From: Halohasta litorea
GTDB taxonomy: Archaea; Halobacteriota; Halobacteria; Halobacteriales; Haloferacaceae
Assembly: GCF_024494645.1 (NCBI RefSeq)
Contig: NZ_JANHDJ010000012.1
Coordinates: 1-41,481, forward strand
Direction of reading: 5' to 3'
DNA: 41,481 nucleotides
Both the position numbers and the translations under genes were made by a program. This document shows, one piece after another, positions 9,427 through 19,775 of the stretch. The first letter of the stretch is position 1, and each line of letters begins with the position of its first letter. A model generated the notes under the pieces. The model saw only the letters and a program-made list of their open reading frames with translations. It was not told the DNA's origin and ran no database searches.

Positions 9427-9575
9427 CCTCGCAGTGCAGGGGTCTAGGTCTAGATTGAATACCAGAGTCGGATTTCTTGGTCGACCTCAATCAGCGAACA
9501 CGACTGGTACACTTCAATAGAGGTTTTATCGTGCCCTGAGGGGTGCGGCACTCAGTATGTGTGTCCCATCTCACA

Positions 9576-10229
9576 ATGACTCAATCACTTCTGGAGAAGC
9601 TTAGCCCGATGAATCGTGTCCTGAAACGAGCCCAGTACGAAGCCTTCGCGTTCTCCCTCTACGACGGTGATGTCCTCATTCGTAACGAGAGTCACCTCAA
9701 TCCAGATGATCACGAGTACCATGTTGCAGTCGTCGACGGTGTGCCAGAGAGCTGTGAGTGTCCTGCCGATGAACGATTTGGCGGCCCGTGTAAACACCGA
9801 ACGGCAATCGCGATCCGACCAACCATCCTGGATGTGGCGACCCAGATGCAGCTGGTCGCCGACGGTAGGTCACGGCAGCTCGCCAGTCATATTGACGAGA
9901 TCCTCCTCGGTTCGCCACCGATACAGCCGTCCCCCTCGGTCAAACAACTCGAAGATACCATCCTGCATCCAGCCGAATGGATGCACCTCATCCTCGTACG
10001 TCCGCTTGAGGACGTGACTTTTTGCGAAGTACTCGGTCGTGCCGACGAGCAGACCCTGCTCGACGAGGAAGCCGCTCGGATCCTTCTCGGCAACGCCGAC
10101 GAGATACGTCACGAGATCGGCGATGAGACAGAACTTCTGGATGCTGTTGTCCCACTCACCACGGATGTCGACCATCCGGAAGGCGTACGCGTTAGTGCGA
10201 CGGTTGAGGCGGTCAACCACCAAGTTTAG
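9576..10229 (+). pseudogene. SWIM zinc-finger protein with its 3' end replaced by antisense sequence
   Basis: From ATG 9576 the first ~100 residues are a haloarchaeal SWIM zinc-finger protein: a YEAFAFSLYDGD beta segment, then CECPADERFGGPCKHR, the CxCx(n)CxH zinc site, and a helix TILDVATQMQLVADG. SWIM domains bind DNA or proteins. From about base 9870 the frame runs antisense through the whole coding region of the minus-strand gene at 9870-10418 and stops at 10229. Related SWIM proteins, as I know them, are short (about 110-130 residues) and end with a further Cys motif, which is absent here. The 3' end was therefore probably cut off at about 9870-9890 and the remaining ~120 codons are accidental. 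A chimeric protein could still be made. Confidence 0.6.
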
Positions 10230-10418
10230 ACGTCGGATCGGCTCTCGGTCGTAGTTCCCGAGCACAAAGTACGACCGGTCGTTCTCGTAGACCGGAGTTA
10301 ACTCGCTCAAAGCGTAGAGGATCTCTTCATTATCAGCCAGCGTTATTTCCTCTTCATCAAGTTGGTCTTTGGCACTTTTGAGAACGTCATCAGGAACAGG
10401 CGACTCCTCATCGGACAT
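9870..10418 (-). CDS. Conserved-looking haloarchaeal hypothetical protein, divergent from an HTH gene
   Basis: A 182-residue soluble acidic protein from ATG 10418. Its composition and smooth pattern (LNRRTNAYAFRMVDIRGEW, CLIADLVTYLVGVAEKDPSG, EYFAKSHVLKR, FGWMQDGIFELFDRGGRLYRW) favour this strand over the overlapping plus-strand frame. No signal, membrane helix or catalytic motif is recognised. A TATA-like CTATAAA (10457-10451, read leftward) lies about 33 bases before the ATG, which would give an almost leaderless mRNA. The TTACTC/GAGTAA palindromes next to it suggest control by the divergent winged-helix protein. The two genes may form a functional pair. Confidence 0.72.
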   Translation of the reverse strand: MSDEESPVPDDVLKSAKDQLDEEEITLADNEEILYALSELTPVYENDRSYFVLGNYDREPIRRLNLVVDRLNRRTNAYAFRMVDIRGEWDNSIQKFCLIADLVTYLVGVAEKDPSGFLVEQGLLVGTTEYFAKSHVLKRTYEDEVHPFGWMQDGIFELFDRGGRLYRWRTEEDLVNMTGELP

Positions 10419-11155: not shown

Positions 11156-12112
11156 TTACTTAAATAGATCCTTGCGTTCGGATTCTGAGAGCCGAACATC
11201 CGGGTGTGCGTTTGTCGAACACTCTTCACACTCGTAGGAGCCGCTGCCAGCTTCGAACTGGTAGATCGGATAGCCGAACAAGAAAAACGCATCCTCCTGG
11301 TGGCGTTCGATGACAGCGTCTGCGGTCGCTCCACAGCCAGGACAGTAGTCCTCGCTCATGGCTGGGACTTGGTAGGTGATTTTCTTGCGGCCCATGAATG
11401 CCTCTCTGTACGCTGCACTCTGTGATGTCTTGATGAGATCCTCCACAGGGAAGTCGTCGACACTCACCGTGTTGTCGTGACCGGTTTCGGTGGCGACGGT
11501 GACATCGGTGTAAGCACTCACCTCGACGGTGTTGTTCGACCCGACGAGGTGGAGGCGGAGGCTGCCATAGCCGTCGACTCGGACGCTGTTGTTCCAGCCA
11601 GTGACGTAGAGTTCGAACGCCGCTTCGGAGTTCTCGATCCGCACCGAGTTCTGACCACCGGTAACCGAAACCCCGGTTTCCGGCTCGGAAACGCTCAACT
11701 CGCGGTCCCAGCCGGTCACGCCGTTGTCGTACTGCTTCCGGGAGAGTGGGGATGTATCGCTTTCGTCGTGGAACCGCTGTTCGTCGCCGACGATCTGGAG
11801 GTTGCCACTGACCGCGTCGTGTTCGATGAACACATCTTCGGCGTCGACGATGAGGACGTCACCGGAGACCCCACCCGATTCGATATATCCGTCCTCGATC
11901 GTCCCGCTGATCTCGGTCTCGATGGCGCCGATATCGGCTGTGTCGCCCGTAGGCGTGTTCGTATAGACGTATTCCGCGTTCAGTATTTTCAGATCACCGC
12001 CGACGGCCCCGGACTTGACGTGGATGTTTTCGGGGTCGACAATCTTGACGGGTGTCTGTTCGTCACCGTTGAGCGTAATATCGCCGGAGTAGGTTGTCGA
12101 AGGGGAACTCAT
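11156..12112 (-). CDS. Beta-helix-like repeat protein with C-terminal zinc ribbon
   Basis: A 318-residue protein. Residues about 5-225 are an acidic series of short strand-turn repeats (GGDLKILNAEYVYT, SGDVLIVDAEDVFI, SGNLQIVGDE, NNSVRVDGYGSLRLHLVG, NNTVEVSAYTDV), consistent with a right-handed beta-helix or similar solenoid. A linker with a basic stretch (GRKKITYQ) leads to a four-Cys zinc ribbon (CPGCG about residue 255, CEEC about 299). No signal peptide is seen, so it should be cytosolic. It is the last gene of the minus-strand cluster that runs down from 17571, 43 bases after the K+ channel gene. It may bind the channel's pentapeptide solenoid, but that is only inference from shape and position. 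Confidence 0.72.
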   Translation of the reverse strand: MSSPSTTYSGDITLNGDEQTPVKIVDPENIHVKSGAVGGDLKILNAEYVYTNTPTGDTADIGAIETEISGTIEDGYIESGGVSGDVLIVDAEDVFIEHDAVSGNLQIVGDEQRFHDESDTSPLSRKQYDNGVTGWDRELSVSEPETGVSVTGGQNSVRIENSEAAFELYVTGWNNSVRVDGYGSLRLHLVGSNNTVEVSAYTDVTVATETGHDNTVSVDDFPVEDLIKTSQSAAYREAFMGRKKITYQVPAMSEDYCPGCGATADAVIERHQEDAFFLFGYPIYQFEAGSGSYECEECSTNAHPDVRLSESERKDLFK

Positions 12113-12155
12113 TGTTGTCAGATTGTATGCTGATTGCTATAGTTCTGTTTACGGT

Positions 12156-14333
12156 TCAAATTTCGCTCCGTTTGATCAGGGCGTATAGAAACAGCCCCGC
12201 GAGGATCACGTTCATGTAGACGAGGAACGCGGAGACGAGTCTGGCAGCGGGGCCGATCGGCCCGATGTTGCCGTAGCCGATCGTGAGGAACGTGATATAC
12301 GAGAAGTACAGATTCAATCCGAGCGTCTGCAGCCCATCGAACGTGGCAAGCTCGGCAACCGCGATCTGTCCGGCCCCGGTCTCGAAGGGCGAACCACCAA
12401 CTGCAAACAGCAGGCCAGCGAACAGCGGAAACAAAATAAAAACAGTCGTGATCCGATAGAGCCGGAGCCCATAGCCACATGAGATCCCGAGAAACAAGTT
12501 TTCGATACCGCGGAGCGCGTTCTGCCCCCGTGTCAACAGTGCTTCACTCGAATCTGCGGCGATCTCGAAGAACTTTCGTCGGGCGTGTTGCTGGCGTTTG
12601 ACGCGGAACTCGCCTGCAGCCTTCACGTTGCTCTGGGCCGATGCGCTGTTTTTCGCCTTTAGATACGTTTTTTCGATTACGTCGGGCGTCATCTCAACCT
12701 CGAAATCATACGGACACGTCCCGTCGTCGAACCCGTGGAGGTTCCAATCGTTGCGGTCCAGATAGTTGGTGTGTTCCGAGAAGGTGAATTCATCGAACGT
12801 CGTATCACAGAATCGAACGTAGTCGAGGAGTTCCCGCTCATCGGTCGGCTTCTCCGCGCTCAGTTCGACATCGCCGACCGTCGCCCGTGTCAGATCGAAC
12901 CGAACCCAGCCGTCTTCGGGCTGGATAATACGCCCTTCGGCAATCGTCGCCTCGGTGAAATTGAGATAGGTGTCGTCGCCGAAGGAGACCGCTTTCAACC
13001 GAAGCGAGTCGGTGAACTCCGCGTCAGTAAAGTCCGCACTCTCTTTGAACGCGACCTCGCTAAAGTCCGCAGCGGTACAGACGACATCGCTGAAGTCGAC
13101 AGCGCCGACAAACGTCGCATCCTGGAAGACGGCATCGTCTTCTAAATGGTTGGTTCCGCCGTTGAATGTCGCTCCACGGAAGGTAGTGGATCCACCGAAA
13201 ACAGCGTTCGTGAATACGGAGTCACCGTCAAACAGTACTTCATCGAAATCGGCTACACCATGGAACTGGGCGTTTTCGAACGTCACATCGTCGGTAAACT
13301 CGCATCGCTCGAAGATTACATCACCAACAAATTCAGTTTTCGTGAAGTTCGAATACCCGAAGCGCCCCTTCTCGAAGGTCACTCTGTCGCCGAACTCCGC
13401 ATTGGCGAACGACACATCGTCCTCAAGCAGTGCTGTGCCACCACGACACTCGACGCCACGGAAGCTCGCTCCCTCATCGAAGCGCGTGTCGTCGAACAGG
13501 ACGTCCTCACCGAAGGTGACCTCGTCGAAGTCCGCAGCGGCGGTGAACTCGCTGCCAGTAAACACCACCGTGCCCGAGGCGTCGACCTTCTCGAAGGCGG
13601 CCTCGCCGTCGAACAGGACGTCTCTGAATTCGATGTATTCGAAGGTAGCATACAGAAACGAGACGTTGCGGTTGAATACTGCCCCCGAGAACGTCGTATT
13701 ATCGCCCGTCTCGTTGGATCGACCGTAGAACTGCGTCCCCTCGAAACTCGCCTCGGCCTCGAATACTGCGTCAGTAAAACCCACATCGTTGGTGAACTCC
13801 ACCTCATCGAAGAGTGCTTGCTGGGTGAAGATAGTCCCCGTGAACTCGGTATCGTCGCCTGTGACTGTCGCCTCAAAGCAGTCGACGGTATCGGTGAATC
13901 GGGTGCCCGTGCACAACACACCGTTTTCGAAATCACAGTTATCAGCCATGAATCCGCCGACCGTGCTATGGCGGAGATCGAGCTGTTCTTCGAATCGACC
14001 ATGGAGGACGGATATCCCGCCGGGAATCGTCGTATGCCGCAGATCGACTGGATGTTGGTCGTCGCTTTCGACGTCGACGTAGTCGAGGTCCAGCTCTGGG
14101 AGGTGGGCTCCGATGAACGCCCGCGTCGCGTGGGTATCGTCTTCGTCTTTGAGTTTCCGAACGAGAGACGCGGTGAGATCGGCTGCCGAGATACCAGCGG
14201 CCGCACGCTCGTCGGGGGCCATGTGGAACGGGCAGTAGTCGCTCGATGCGTGTTGTTCGTGTGGACACGACCATCGGTTTTCGACCGATGTCGAGTCGTG
14301 TGCTGCGGGGTCAAACTCGTAGGTACAGGTCAT
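12156..14333 (-). CDS. Pentapeptide-repeat protein fused to a two-TM potassium channel
   Basis: A 725-residue fusion. Residues 1-45 carry Cys/His pairs (TCTYEFD, SCPHEQH, YCPFHM) that may bind zinc. From about 85 to 560 the protein is a long pentapeptide-repeat solenoid (A(D/N)FxxAxF-type units such as FENAQFHGVADFDEVLF). The C-terminus is an ion channel: TM1 at about 627-647 (ITTVFILFPLFAGLLFAVGG), a pore helix, a K+ selectivity filter TIGYG at 684-688, and TM2 (LVSAFLVYMNVILAGLFLYAL). Two TMs plus the filter make one subunit, so a tetramer is expected, with the solenoids as a large cytosolic gate or scaffold. The gene follows the DUF2617-like gene by 48 bases. Channel identity is firm; gating signal unknown. 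Confidence 0.92.
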   Translation of the reverse strand: MTCTYEFDPAAHDSTSVENRWSCPHEQHASSDYCPFHMAPDERAAAGISAADLTASLVRKLKDEDDTHATRAFIGAHLPELDLDYVDVESDDQHPVDLRHTTIPGGISVLHGRFEEQLDLRHSTVGGFMADNCDFENGVLCTGTRFTDTVDCFEATVTGDDTEFTGTIFTQQALFDEVEFTNDVGFTDAVFEAEASFEGTQFYGRSNETGDNTTFSGAVFNRNVSFLYATFEYIEFRDVLFDGEAAFEKVDASGTVVFTGSEFTAAADFDEVTFGEDVLFDDTRFDEGASFRGVECRGGTALLEDDVSFANAEFGDRVTFEKGRFGYSNFTKTEFVGDVIFERCEFTDDVTFENAQFHGVADFDEVLFDGDSVFTNAVFGGSTTFRGATFNGGTNHLEDDAVFQDATFVGAVDFSDVVCTAADFSEVAFKESADFTDAEFTDSLRLKAVSFGDDTYLNFTEATIAEGRIIQPEDGWVRFDLTRATVGDVELSAEKPTDERELLDYVRFCDTTFDEFTFSEHTNYLDRNDWNLHGFDDGTCPYDFEVEMTPDVIEKTYLKAKNSASAQSNVKAAGEFRVKRQQHARRKFFEIAADSSEALLTRGQNALRGIENLFLGISCGYGLRLYRITTVFILFPLFAGLLFAVGGSPFETGAGQIAVAELATFDGLQTLGLNLYFSYITFLTIGYGNIGPIGPAARLVSAFLVYMNVILAGLFLYALIKRSEI

Positions 14334-14381
14334 AGGGATCTCGATACGGTAGTTGTTTTGACAGACGTGATGGTTCCGTAG

Positions 14382-14936
14382 TTATTTCAATTTCACATGA
14401 GGTTTTTTGTATTCTGGTTCTCTGTCGGCGGGAGCAGCTGGGAGTTCGGTGAACTCGTGTTCCGTATACAGCGCCAGCTCGTACTCCGGGTAGGTGTGGT
14501 AGGTCTCGTAGGTCCTGGCCGACCGGCAGTTGATCGTCGTATAGGCCGCCGGCTCGAATCGATAGGCGATATCGAACGGCTCTGGACCCGGAAACGCTGA
14601 CAGCGGTTCACGCTTGATCGTCGTGGTCACCCCGACCGACCCGAACCGGTAGTGACCGGCGTGGATCGCCTCTTCATCACCGGGAGCGGCTGTCCCAGGT
14701 GGTCGACTCTCGTCGACCAGTGGTACTGTTTTCACTCGTCCCTGTCGAATCGGTTTACACGAAAACAGTTCGTGGAAACCGAGTTCCGGGGCCCCGATGT
14801 AGTGTGAGTCGCCGATCACGGCAAAGGTGAACTCGGTCTCAAAGAATCGCCGTTGTACCCGTCGTTTGATGTCATACTCCGCAAGCGGTGGCTGCTCGGC
14901 AGTGTACGCAAGGTAGAGACACTCGGGTGCTGTCAT
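14382..14936 (-). CDS. DUF2617-like hypothetical protein
   Basis: A 184-residue soluble protein. FAVIGDSHYIGAPELGFHELFSC resembles the G(A/D)SH...C signature I associate with DUF2617, and the late TYHTYPEYELALYTE segment resembles its conserved W/Y-H-x-YP-x-E region. In Actinobacteria, DUF2617 genes occur beside membrane aminopropyltransferases, DUF350 and DUF4178 proteins, and the same kind of neighbour is present here. Its ATG (14936-14934) overlaps the TGA of the aminopropyltransferase (14935-14933), so the two are translationally coupled. The biochemical role is unknown. The assignment is by pattern and context, not by search. Confidence 0.6.
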   Translation of the reverse strand: MTAPECLYLAYTAEQPPLAEYDIKRRVQRRFFETEFTFAVIGDSHYIGAPELGFHELFSCKPIRQGRVKTVPLVDESRPPGTAAPGDEEAIHAGHYRFGSVGVTTTIKREPLSAFPGPEPFDIAYRFEPAAYTTINCRSARTYETYHTYPEYELALYTEHEFTELPAAPADREPEYKKPHVKLK

Positions 14937-16720
14937 TGTTTTTCCGTTTTGACTCTGGTTTCGACGATCAGCTCGTAGTTCGGATCGAAGACGCTGTTCG
15001 GCTCGATACCGGCATACTGTGGAGTTTCGCTCCAGTCGACCGCACGGTACTTTTCGCTGTGATTACGAACGTAGTCGGTCCCATTCGGCGGAGTGATGGT
15101 CGACTGGGGTCCGTCAGGGGAGAACATGAAGAACCGTTCGCCGAGCTGGTCGGTGCCATCAGCGTCGGGATCGTTGTACGCGTAGTACGCCATGCGGTGG
15201 TCGAACCCGGCCTCACGGACAGTGTTCATGTAGGCTTTGTTGTGAGGGCCGTAGGTGTAGCCCGAATACCCCCACGTCACGACGACACCGTCGTCTGATA
15301 GCCGGTCGGCGAGCATGCTGTAGAACTCGACGGAATACAGATGGAGTAGGTCGTCGCTTTTCGCGCCGGGGAGATCCAGGAGGACGAGGTCGTACTCACG
15401 GTCAGTCCCCTGAAGATACGTATAGATGTCCTGCTGGTAGACCGTCAGGTGGTCGTACTCATAGGCATCGTTGTGGTACTGTTCGAGGAACTCACTGTGT
15501 TTGGTCCGTTCCATGAACTCCCCGTCGAGGTCGACCTGGTCGACGCTGACACCGTGATCCCGCAGGTAGTTCGCTGCGATCCAGTCGCCGCCACCGACCA
15601 ACAGTACATCCGTCTCAGTCGAGTTCTCGTACATCGTCATCGGGACATCGACGAGCCCGTGGTGGTAGGAGTCAGCCCAACTATCACACAGTTGGATCGC
15701 CGAATCTAACCGCAGACAGGTGTCTGACTCGCCAGCGAACAGTTGGTTCTCCGACTCGCCGTCCCACGACCGTTCGTATCGAATTACTTGCTGGTTTCGG
15801 GTGGTATACTGATCGGTGATCGACGCCGACACGGTGTCCTGTGGGTGTTCGTCCTCGATCAGCGATTCCATGTAGTAGCCCGTCAGTTCGTCGTCGACCG
15901 CTTGGTGCTGGACACTGACGCCCGCATAGACGGCGGTAAGAAGCAAACACGCAACCAGCATCGCTCGATGTTCGCGGAAGTTGATCACGCGATCGCCGGT
16001 GCTAGTGATCCCCCAGCGGTCGCTGAACCGCGCCACAAACAGAATGGCTGCGAGACAGTTCAACAGCGCCAACACGAACACCGACGGAATCAGCCCGAGT
16101 CGCGGATAGAGAACGAACACGTAGACGAGTGCTCCGAAGAGCCCACCGAGGTAGTCCATCGCCAACACGGTCGAGTAGGTGTCGTACTCCGTGCTCTCCC
16201 GGTCGGTATGAAACACAACCGAAAGTAGCCGGTAGGAACCGTTCTCAACTACCCGCCCGAGTCGCTTCACCCAGCCGGGTGGCGACGTCGACCCCGCCTC
16301 CGTCTGGACCATCGACAGCAGCAGCGGCAGCTCGAACCCCGATAGCACACCGACGACAACGACCGGTAAGCGCGCTGCAATCTGTACCATCCCGTTCGGG
16401 AGGACCTGTGGGAGTGCGGCGGTGTTCAGCCAGAGAATGAACAGAAAGCCGACCGGAGCAACGAGTGCCAGATAGACCTCTGTCCGAAAGAAGTTCGAGT
16501 GCTGGGCGTCGTCGAAGTGGCGAACGAGAAACGAGCCGACACCAAGCGAGGAGAAAAACAGCCCGATGGTGAGCCCGTACTGCGTGACGGTCCCGCCGTA
16601 CATGACCGTCAGTAGTTCCGAGTAAACGAGTTCGTAGGCGAAGCTACAGAGGGCGACGATACACGCGATCCCGTGTAACATCGCCTGCTTGGATACGACG
16701 GACGGAGTAGAGTCTGACAT
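14933..16720 (-). CDS. Membrane-anchored spermidine-synthase-like aminopropyltransferase
   Basis: About 595 residues from ATG 16720 (an upstream in-frame start at 16753 is less likely because MSDSTPSVVS immediately precedes the first TM). The N-terminal half has about seven hydrophobic helices (CIVALCSFAYELVYSELL, YGLTIGLFFSSLGVGSFLV and further), as in membrane-fused SpeE-like proteins. The C-terminal half is the Rossmann domain: DVLLVGGGDWIAANYLRDHG (about 370), VDLDGEF (about 395) and the catalytic-loop region YDLVLLDLPGA (about 445), then LYSVEFYSMLADRLSDDGVVV. The GGGDG-type loop reads GGGDW. Cytosolic spermidine synthases lack the membrane half, so the acceptor may be membrane-bound or a local metabolite. 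It overlaps the DUF2617-like gene and follows the Tat lipoprotein gene by 77 bases. Confidence 0.88.
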   Translation of the reverse strand: MSDSTPSVVSKQAMLHGIACIVALCSFAYELVYSELLTVMYGGTVTQYGLTIGLFFSSLGVGSFLVRHFDDAQHSNFFRTEVYLALVAPVGFLFILWLNTAALPQVLPNGMVQIAARLPVVVVGVLSGFELPLLLSMVQTEAGSTSPPGWVKRLGRVVENGSYRLLSVVFHTDRESTEYDTYSTVLAMDYLGGLFGALVYVFVLYPRLGLIPSVFVLALLNCLAAILFVARFSDRWGITSTGDRVINFREHRAMLVACLLLTAVYAGVSVQHQAVDDELTGYYMESLIEDEHPQDTVSASITDQYTTRNQQVIRYERSWDGESENQLFAGESDTCLRLDSAIQLCDSWADSYHHGLVDVPMTMYENSTETDVLLVGGGDWIAANYLRDHGVSVDQVDLDGEFMERTKHSEFLEQYHNDAYEYDHLTVYQQDIYTYLQGTDREYDLVLLDLPGAKSDDLLHLYSVEFYSMLADRLSDDGVVVTWGYSGYTYGPHNKAYMNTVREAGFDHRMAYYAYNDPDADGTDQLGERFFMFSPDGPQSTITPPNGTDYVRNHSEKYRAVDWSETPQYAGIEPNSVFDPNYELIVETRVKTEKQ

Positions 16721-16797
16721 ACTATGAGAGACTGACCGACCATCGATCGGCAACTACCGGATTCGAATCCGAGAGGCGTCTCACTCGTGGAGGCTCC

Positions 16798-17571
16798 TCA
16801 GATACGGGGTGAGACTTTCCATCGTTCGGTGATCTCCTTGCCGTCGACGGTTTGTTCGACACGGAGGTCGATACACTCCCAGCCGAGATCGGTCCCCTCG
16901 TCGGGGCCCTCGGCAACGACGATGTTGGCACCGACCCGATACCACCCTGGTTGCAGCTCCTGGACCGAGGTTTCGATTTCGGCGTCGGTCGGGGAGTCGT
17001 AGGTATCGTCCCAGTTTATTGGTCCGGGGCCGGGGTCCTGCTCCTCGAAGCGAGCGTTCGAACCGATGTATGCGACGCCGAGGGTGGCGATGTCGACCGG
17101 ATACTGGGAGACTTCGTCGTCGTGATCGTCGTACCAGCCGTTCGTATACGAGCCGCCCCAGAACCACGCCCGGCCGTTTGCGGTCCGTGGGGCCGAACTG
17201 TAGCCGCCGCTTCCGCGGCCAGTTGCGCCACGTCCCTTTGCGGCCCGGGCGGTCCCGACCGGGGAGAGCTTGGAGAGCGCCGACAGGCTCGCTGTCGAGC
17301 CATTATCTCGCGTTTGATTTGTGGGTCCGGCTGACGCGTTGACTTCGAGATCCCGCCGAGACTGCACCCAGCGGTTGGATTCGGCGAACGGATCGATCCG
17401 AAGTGTTGTCCCGTCGGCTGAGAGTTCGATGTTGTCGATAACGTTCGATTTCCGTGGCGGGGGTTCGTTATTAGAACCAATACAGCCTGCAATGGCAGTA
17501 AGCCCGCCAGTAGCAACGATGCTACTGGTTCTGAGCATGGTACGCCGATCTATTGGTTGCTTAAATTTCAT
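16798..17571 (-). CDS. Tat lipoprotein of unknown function, first gene of the aminopropyltransferase cluster
   Basis: A 257-residue protein with a twin-arginine motif (DRRTMLR, residues 8-14) and a lipobox ending at Cys30 (LTAIAGC), so it should be exported folded and lipid-anchored outside. The middle is Gly/Ser/Arg-rich (about 100-130), followed by a mature domain with many aromatic residues (GRAWFWGGSYTNGWYDDHDDE, LGVAYIGSNARFEEQ) and a beta-rich end (QPGWYRVGANIVVAEG). I recognise no family. Its ATG at 17571 is preceded by an AT-rich leader and is probably the promoter-proximal gene of the cluster. It may be the outside sensor or substrate-binding part of the system, which is inference from position. 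Confidence 0.72.
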   Translation of the reverse strand: MKFKQPIDRRTMLRTSSIVATGGLTAIAGCIGSNNEPPPRKSNVIDNIELSADGTTLRIDPFAESNRWVQSRRDLEVNASAGPTNQTRDNGSTASLSALSKLSPVGTARAAKGRGATGRGSGGYSSAPRTANGRAWFWGGSYTNGWYDDHDDEVSQYPVDIATLGVAYIGSNARFEEQDPGPGPINWDDTYDSPTDAEIETSVQELQPGWYRVGANIVVAEGPDEGTDLGWECIDLRVEQTVDGKEITERWKVSPRI

Positions 17572-18792: not shown

Positions 18793-18902
18793 GGTGGAGA
18801 AGTGTATCGGACCGGAGGTAAGTGTTATCTGAATGACTATTAAGTTGGATTACTGACGTGTGAGACCGGAAGACGTACGAGATAGAAAGCTCAGTGGAAA
18901 CC

Positions 18903-19775
18903 ATGGCGAACTCGGGAGAGCCTTCCGATGGTACGTATTCAGTGTTAACCGACGAGACACGTCTTCGGATCCTCTTTGCGCTTGCCGAACAGTACAATGA
19001 TGCGTGGTCATCGGGGTGCCCCTCGTTTTCGGAGTTGCGTGATCGAGTCGGCGTAGAGGACACGAGTCGGTTCAGTTATCATCTCGATGAGCTACAAGAC
19101 GAGTTCGTTCACAAGGTCGACGGGCAGTACCGGCCCCAAGTAGCCGCTCTCGAGATCGTGGCGGCGATCCGAGCAGGGATGTACGACAAGGAGGTGATGG
19201 TCGATCAACAGCAGATCGACTACGACTGCCTACATTGTGAAGGGGCACTCGTCGCATGCTATCGGGATCACTATCTGTACGTTGGGTGCCCAGATCACGG
19301 CGCAGCAATCGCCTATCCGACCCCGCCTCGGGCAGTAGTGGATCGGTCTTTGGAGGAGGTTATCGATCTCTCACTTCGAAAACACGCCTGCGATTTACGA
19401 CTGCTCCGTCAGGGAGTCTGTCCGCACTGTTGGGGCACCGCTGAGCTCTCGTTTCCACGGGACTCCGTGCCGGATTCATACCTCCTTGACAACGTTCCGT
19501 ATGCAACGGCGATGTGTGATGTCTGTTGGCTGTCCTATCCGCTTCCGGTCGCGCATCTGGTTCTCGGACACTCCGCCGTCGACCAGTTGTACGCAGATCA
19601 CGGACTTGGTCCGGCAGACACACAGCTCGGCCCCCATGATCTAGCACGAGTGAGTGCTGTCGACTACTATGAAAGCAAGCCACCAGCAGCCCGGCTTACC
19701 ATCGGACTCAGTGATCAACCGCTTGTTTTCGAACTCGACGAAAACGTGCGTATTCACGATTACTGGCAGACATAA
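18903..19775 (+). CDS. ArsR-type winged-helix regulator with zinc-ribbon domains (DUF7351-like)
   Basis: A 290-residue haloarchaeal regulator from ATG 18903. Residues about 10-85 form an ArsR-like winged helix (LTDETRLRILFALAEQYND, RFSYHLDELQDEFVHK). A first Cys pair lies in DCLHCEGALVACYRDHYLY and GCPDHG; a second set is CPHCWGT and MCDVCW. These suggest two zinc ribbons forming the C-terminal sensing or dimer domain. The size and order match the DUF7351-type HTH proteins that are abundant in Halobacteria. It is divergent from the CPBP protease gene and is the likely candidate to control it. The ligand is unknown. Confidence 0.85.
   Translation: MANSGEPSDGTYSVLTDETRLRILFALAEQYNDAWSSGCPSFSELRDRVGVEDTSRFSYHLDELQDEFVHKVDGQYRPQVAALEIVAAIRAGMYDKEVMVDQQQIDYDCLHCEGALVACYRDHYLYVGCPDHGAAIAYPTPPRAVVDRSLEEVIDLSLRKHACDLRLLRQGVCPHCWGTAELSFPRDSVPDSYLLDNVPYATAMCDVCWLSYPLPVAHLVLGHSAVDQLYADHGLGPADTQLGPHDLARVSAVDYYESKPPAARLTIGLSDQPLVFELDENVRIHDYWQT

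Follow-up and report, generated by a model that had tools for sequence, protein, structure and literature searches.

A conserved haloarchaeal gene module comprising a membrane-bound SpeE-like protein, a DUF2617 protein and a predicted solenoid potassium channel

Introduction

The role of the SpeE homologues of haloarchaea has been an explicit question since 2016, as it was raised by the lack of spermidine, of dcAdoMet and of a mutant phenotype. As described by Prunetti et al. (2016), the Haloferax homologues have seven transmembrane (7TM) segments and are without putrescine-binding residues, no AdoMet decarboxylase (AdoMetDC) was found in halophiles and no spermidine was detected in Hfx. volcanii; a strain deleted for one such gene, HVO_B0357, showed no phenotype in the conditions examined, and the role of this gene was left open (PMC5178350). 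A further report describes a GGGD(W/Y) motif in HVO_B0357 and the presence of agmatine in haloarchaea (PMC6267482). In the excerpted parts of both papers HVO_B0357 is treated as an orphan enzyme and its gene neighbourhood is not discussed.

In bacteria, operons encoding 7TM-SpeE proteins with DUF350, DUF4178 or DUF2617/DUF4247 proteins and a K+ channel have been described around PspA and connected with envelope stress (PMC11237479). The window analysed here, contig NZ_JANHDJ010000012.1 of Halohasta litorea (GCF_024494645.1; 41,481 nt), carries a comparable association at 11156-17571, and it was originally predicted that a polyamine-type product made at the membrane might gate the channel. What the SpeE-like protein does in this setting, and with which partners, is considered below.

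Organisation of the locus

Inspection of the open reading frames (ORFs) places five minus-strand genes, separated by small gaps or overlapping, where the original prediction had put them (Table 1). The DUF2617 ORF overlaps the stop of the SpeE-like gene by 4 nt. The start conserved among SpeE-like proteins fits position 16720, which is perhaps better than 16753, and the remaining intergenic gaps are 43-77 nt, varying with the start chosen. Scans of the sequence for sigma-70 promoters and terminators gave matches at shuffle level only; promoters of the sigma-70 type are not expected in archaea. A CAAX protease gene upstream was considered as a conserved partner and rejected, as it is not common to other loci.

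Table 1. Genes of the module in the Halohasta litorea window
Product	Coordinates	Strand	Length	Family matches
Tat-exported lipoprotein	16798..17571	(-)	257 aa	no Pfam family
7TM + spermidine-synthase-fold enzyme (SpeE-like)	14933..16753	(-)	606 aa	PF01564, NF002956
DUF2617 family protein	14382..14936	(-)	184 aa	PF10936
Predicted 2TM K+ channel with N-terminal beta-solenoid	12156..14333	(-)	725 aa	PF13576, Ion_trans_2
Beta-solenoid (DUF3060-like)/zinc-ribbon protein	11156..12112	(-)	318 aa	

Conservation and mobility of the module

In a first survey the DUF2617 protein of the window was searched against 146 genomes of the order, and homologues were found in 18. Comparison of their neighbourhoods revealed the lipoprotein, SpeE-like and DUF2617 genes together in all 18 genomes. 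The zinc-ribbon gene adjoins this trio in 17, being absent from the remaining genome (G002), and the solenoid channel gene adjoins it in 16. In the other two the channel is found elsewhere, about 27 kb from the module in G008 and, in a longer form, on another contig in G002. In one genome (G126) the module is divided between the two ends of a single contig, as expected if a circular plasmid had been opened there.

When these 146 genomes were searched with profiles, full-length lipoprotein matches came only from the 18 genomes and from G142, and there was no strong match to the zinc-ribbon protein beyond the 17 genomes that have it. A model of the SpeE-like family gave at least 800 bits for the 18 loci of module genomes and at most 62 bits for the rest of the 30 Spermine_synth loci retrieved. 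The channel family is more widely spread than the module, and is found without the other module genes in G035 and G075. A scan of genome contigs with the DUF2617 protein of the window returned one locus, and scans of viral contigs found no relatives of the module.

A class-wide DUF2617 profile search, which matched 35 of 242 genomes, provided a hold-out set of 24 previously unseen loci chosen by DUF2617 alone. The trio is present at every one of these loci, as is the zinc-ribbon gene (24/24), and the channel is present at 22. The co-occurrence on which the original prediction depended is thus borne out in both sets, and conservation of the module is far beyond chance. It is near certain that the five genes make up a real, tightly packed and strongly conserved module.

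The module is found across six families. Within the first set of loci its gene order varies in a few ways, the genes flanking it are mostly unshared, and many copies are plasmid-borne; other copies lie on chromosomal-sized contigs. Because the flanks are mostly unrelated and many copies are on plasmids, the module is concluded to move as a unit. The Haloferax larsenii plasmid carries the channel gene some 160 kb away from the remaining four. Rank correlation of pairwise identities between the five families is moderate (Spearman 0.39-0.72), which adds little.

Several loci have features of their own. The lipoprotein homologue of G142 (L096:9498-10190) stands alone, with the other module genes absent. 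Two adjacent lipoprotein copies are present in Halorussus-type modules (L030:6092-7593 and L043:5652-7154). Upstream of the module in the second of these (L043:1712-5529) are genes for an aldehyde dehydrogenase, an NAD-binding_4 reductase and an aldo/keto reductase, an arrangement common to several related loci.

The solenoid channel and the zinc-ribbon protein

The 2TM K+ channels of the MthK type have a TxGYG selectivity filter and cytosolic sensor or regulatory domains. The module channel resembles these in its two TM segments, its TxGYG filter and its cytosolic sensor, but the regulatory part is an N-terminal solenoid and there is no RCK domain after the second TM helix. The window protein matches Pentapeptide_3 (3.5e-42) and Ion_trans_2 (3.3e-8), has the filter TIGYG, and ends directly after the second of its two hydrophobic segments; the filter residues T684, G686, Y687 and G688 are invariant in 17 sequences. 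It has an N-terminal Phe-rich beta-solenoid of about 400 residues (PF13576) as well as a conserved linker region. A pentapeptide-solenoid K+ channel had been predicted. The PF13576 match, the two TM segments and the filter uphold this description, but the repeat is not strictly one of five residues: Phe spacing alternates between 5 and 6, giving an 11-residue period with autocorrelation peaks at 11 and 22 and none at 10 or 20. Longer relatives of 1068-1353 aa are encoded in other genomes, at L102:6380-15108, L103:8063-11524 and L100:7600-10806; at L102 there are two giant solenoid channels in tandem, one of which has TLEYV in place of TxGYG.

The last gene of the module encodes, as anticipated, a beta-helix-like protein with a zinc ribbon, made up of a DUF3060-like solenoid and a C-terminal CxxC...CxxC ribbon. 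DUF3060 weakly matches 13 of 17 homologues, and a signal peptide is not evident in the window protein. A weak DUF7351 match is also present in its C-terminal part.

The DUF2617 protein and the lipoprotein

At 22.1 bits the DUF2617 protein of the window falls just under the PF10936 cut-off of 22.3. Nevertheless, PF10936 matches 16 of 16 homologues at E<=0.01 (best 2.7e-8), and the Haloarcula hispanica member is annotated as DUF2617 by NCBI. His45, Glu56, Cys60, His147 and Glu151 are invariant in these proteins, which share an HTYPE motif and have no invariant Asp; the family has been described as having two conserved His residues together with a conserved Asp and Glu (PMC11237479). In the Tat-exported lipoprotein the twin Arg and the lipobox Cys are invariant, and a Gly-rich segment and a C-terminal WKVSPR motif are conserved.

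Active site of the SpeE-like enzyme

The SpeE-like protein of the window matches Spermine_synth (PF01564) at 3.8e-13, with 49.8 bits against a cut-off of 22.9, and NF002956 at 2.6e-63, so that its assignment, like that of the DUF2617 protein, holds in profile searches. It carries the motifs GGGDW and DLPG. Across 42 SpeE-like sequences Tyr363, His364, Gln354, Gly387-389, Asp390, Asp408, Asp442 and Asp460 are all invariant, which implies that the enzyme still has a nucleoside site together with the first of the two catalytic Asp residues (Asp460). The second, amine-binding catalytic Asp is replaced by Gly at position 463 in 42/42, giving DxPG instead of the DxPD seen in four of four bacterial 7TM homologues; solved relatives have DLTD (DxTD). 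GGGDG is likewise replaced by GGGD(W/Y/F) in all 42, and a Gln by Trp494. AdoMet decarboxylase (PF02675) was detected in 0/146 genomes, in a search whose control gave matches in 8 of 14. Thus, of the attributes of a spermidine synthase, the profile match is present, while the two-Asp DxxD and a source of dcAdoMet are missing. Aminopropyltransferase function has likely been lost, and the enzyme has probably been repurposed as another SAM-dependent transferase. AlphaFold models built from a two-sequence alignment were too poor (pLDDT 36 for the SpeE-like and 40 for the DUF2617 protein) and were left out of fold searches.

This reading of the active site is much the same as that of Prunetti et al. 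(PMC5178350). HVO_B0357 and the module enzyme are alike in their 7TM part, GGGD(W/Y) motif, loss of putrescine residues and lack of AdoMetDC (PMC5178350, PMC6267482). Hfx. volcanii, a control in the class-wide profile search, scores for DUF2617; given this and the reported motif of HVO_B0357, it very probably carries the module.

It is also conceivable, if unlikely, that the SpeE-like domain does no catalysis and instead senses SAM, MTA or a related nucleoside, or else a ligand at the surface, and signals through the 7TM part to the channel. Invariant nucleoside-binding residues beside a lost amine site would suit such a sensor, as would a link to a channel whose cytosolic arm is large, but the catalytic-type residues Asp460, Tyr363 and His364 are invariant too, suggesting chemistry.

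A working polyamine system, in which the enzyme adds an aminopropyl group to agmatine or some other amine at the membrane and so yields a polyamine that blocks or gates the channel, appears highly improbable. The SpeE fold and GGGD are retained, bacterial relatives adjoin speD and agmatine is present in haloarchaea (PMC6267482); however, the uniform loss of the second Asp, the missing decarboxylase and the reported lack of spermidine in Haloferax (PMC5178350) speak against the predicted aminopropyltransferase with a polyamine-type product. P. aeruginosa PA4774 was considered as a precedent for surface spermidine being produced by a membrane-fused SpeE and set aside, the paper giving a protein of 349 aa and describing no membrane fusion. 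A second, distant haloarchaeal 7TM-SpeE-like family, with a GGGG(F/Y) motif, is found at L049, L051, L052, L062, L063 and L065-L071 and is apparently unlinked to the module.

Topology of the SpeE-like protein

Seven TM segments are evident in the averaged hydropathy profile. Lys and Arg cluster at the N-terminus and in loops 2, 4 and 6, and outnumber those of the remaining loops in 42/42 sequences; under the positive-inside rule this pattern predicts a cytosolic N-terminus and an outward-facing catalytic domain. Cys346 and Cys356 are also invariant. They lie on the two sides of a predicted hairpin and might be joined by a disulphide; at these positions the four bacterial homologues carry Arg and Ser. 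Together, the charge pattern and the two cysteines suggest, without proof, that the catalytic domain is extracytoplasmic. The charge pattern recurs in the bacterial homologues, of which two have a speD partner, so that either these also face outward or the rule misleads here. To our knowledge, there is no extracytoplasmic source of SAM in archaea.

Comparison with known systems

The bacterial SpeE/DUF2617/K+ channel operons are the closest described kind, and the module is a new archaeal variant of them. Both combine, in one or in related operons, a 7TM-SpeE protein with DUF2617, a lipoprotein and an intracellularly sensing K+ channel. In the archaeal module, by contrast, DUF350, DUF4178 and DUF4247 are each found in 0/18 genomes and SpeD is absent, while speD, DUF4178 and DUF350 accompany the 7TM enzyme in two bacterial plasmid operons. 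The archaeal channel sensor is a Phe-rich solenoid, the beta-solenoid/zinc-ribbon protein is additional, and the enzyme has DxPG. The expectation of a distinct archaeal version, conserved as a module and with two solenoids added, is therefore well founded.

A more distant parallel is the fungal NHMT, a 7TM spermidine-synthase-like ER protein methyltransferase that acts on secreted proteins (PMC10349129). NHMT and the module enzyme share an N-terminal 7TM part and a spermidine-synthase-like domain, but NHMT is a eukaryotic ER protein and lacks the acidic GxG(D/E)G residue present in the module enzymes. NHMT shows that a protein built in this way can be used to modify proteins on the exported side.

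Proposed function

The working hypothesis is that the module serves envelope-linked K+ control, which is the best, albeit tentative, explanation. The five genes would constitute a single operon and a single functional module, horizontally mobile and acting at the haloarchaeal cell envelope. The SpeE-like protein would still bind a SAM-type nucleoside and, with its catalytic domain predicted to face outward, would transfer something other than an aminopropyl group to an amine; most likely it would be a SAM-dependent transferase whose substrate is the exported lipoprotein encoded next to it, a different exported protein or a lipid. The lipoprotein/enzyme pair would read the state of the envelope, and this would be passed on to the cytosolic solenoid of the channel, with DUF2617 in the relay as a cytosolic or membrane-side enzyme and the solenoid/zinc-ribbon protein as an adaptor. 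The outcome would be altered K+ flux in cells whose internal KCl offsets the salt outside. The coupling of enzyme to channel is putative. Counting against envelope-linked K+ control are the channels without module genes, the lack of a phenotype on HVO_B0357 deletion (PMC5178350) and the speD-partnered homologues with the same charge pattern.

In a bolder and rather doubtful form of this hypothesis, the 7TM part would convey SAM, or a donor like it, through the membrane to a disulphide-stabilised outer catalytic domain that modifies the lipoprotein, and the modification state would gate the solenoid channel. If true, this would amount to a novel form of envelope signalling in archaea, built on a repurposed polyamine enzyme. 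A plasmid-borne defence or conflict module, in which sensor genes trigger channel opening as a toxic effector, would fit the patchy, often plasmid-borne distribution and movement as a unit, but is very improbable given the copies on chromosomal-sized contigs, the absence of any known defence domain from the window genes (Pfam, NCBIfam) and the envelope-stress ties of the bacterial kin (PMC11237479).

As regards envelope-linked K+ control, the constant company of DUF2617, lipoprotein and K+ channel directs attention for the GGGD(W/Y/F) enzyme to topology, lipoprotein modification and K+ handling on salt shift. Confirmation would give a function to DUF2617 and to this 7TM-SpeE family, and would define a channel type with a beta-solenoid gating arm.

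Elsewhere in the window, a DUF7347/DUF7351 HTH regulator is encoded at 18894-19775, and a SWIM zinc-finger ORF at 9543-10229 (+) is overlapped by a long antisense ORF at 9870-10418 (-).
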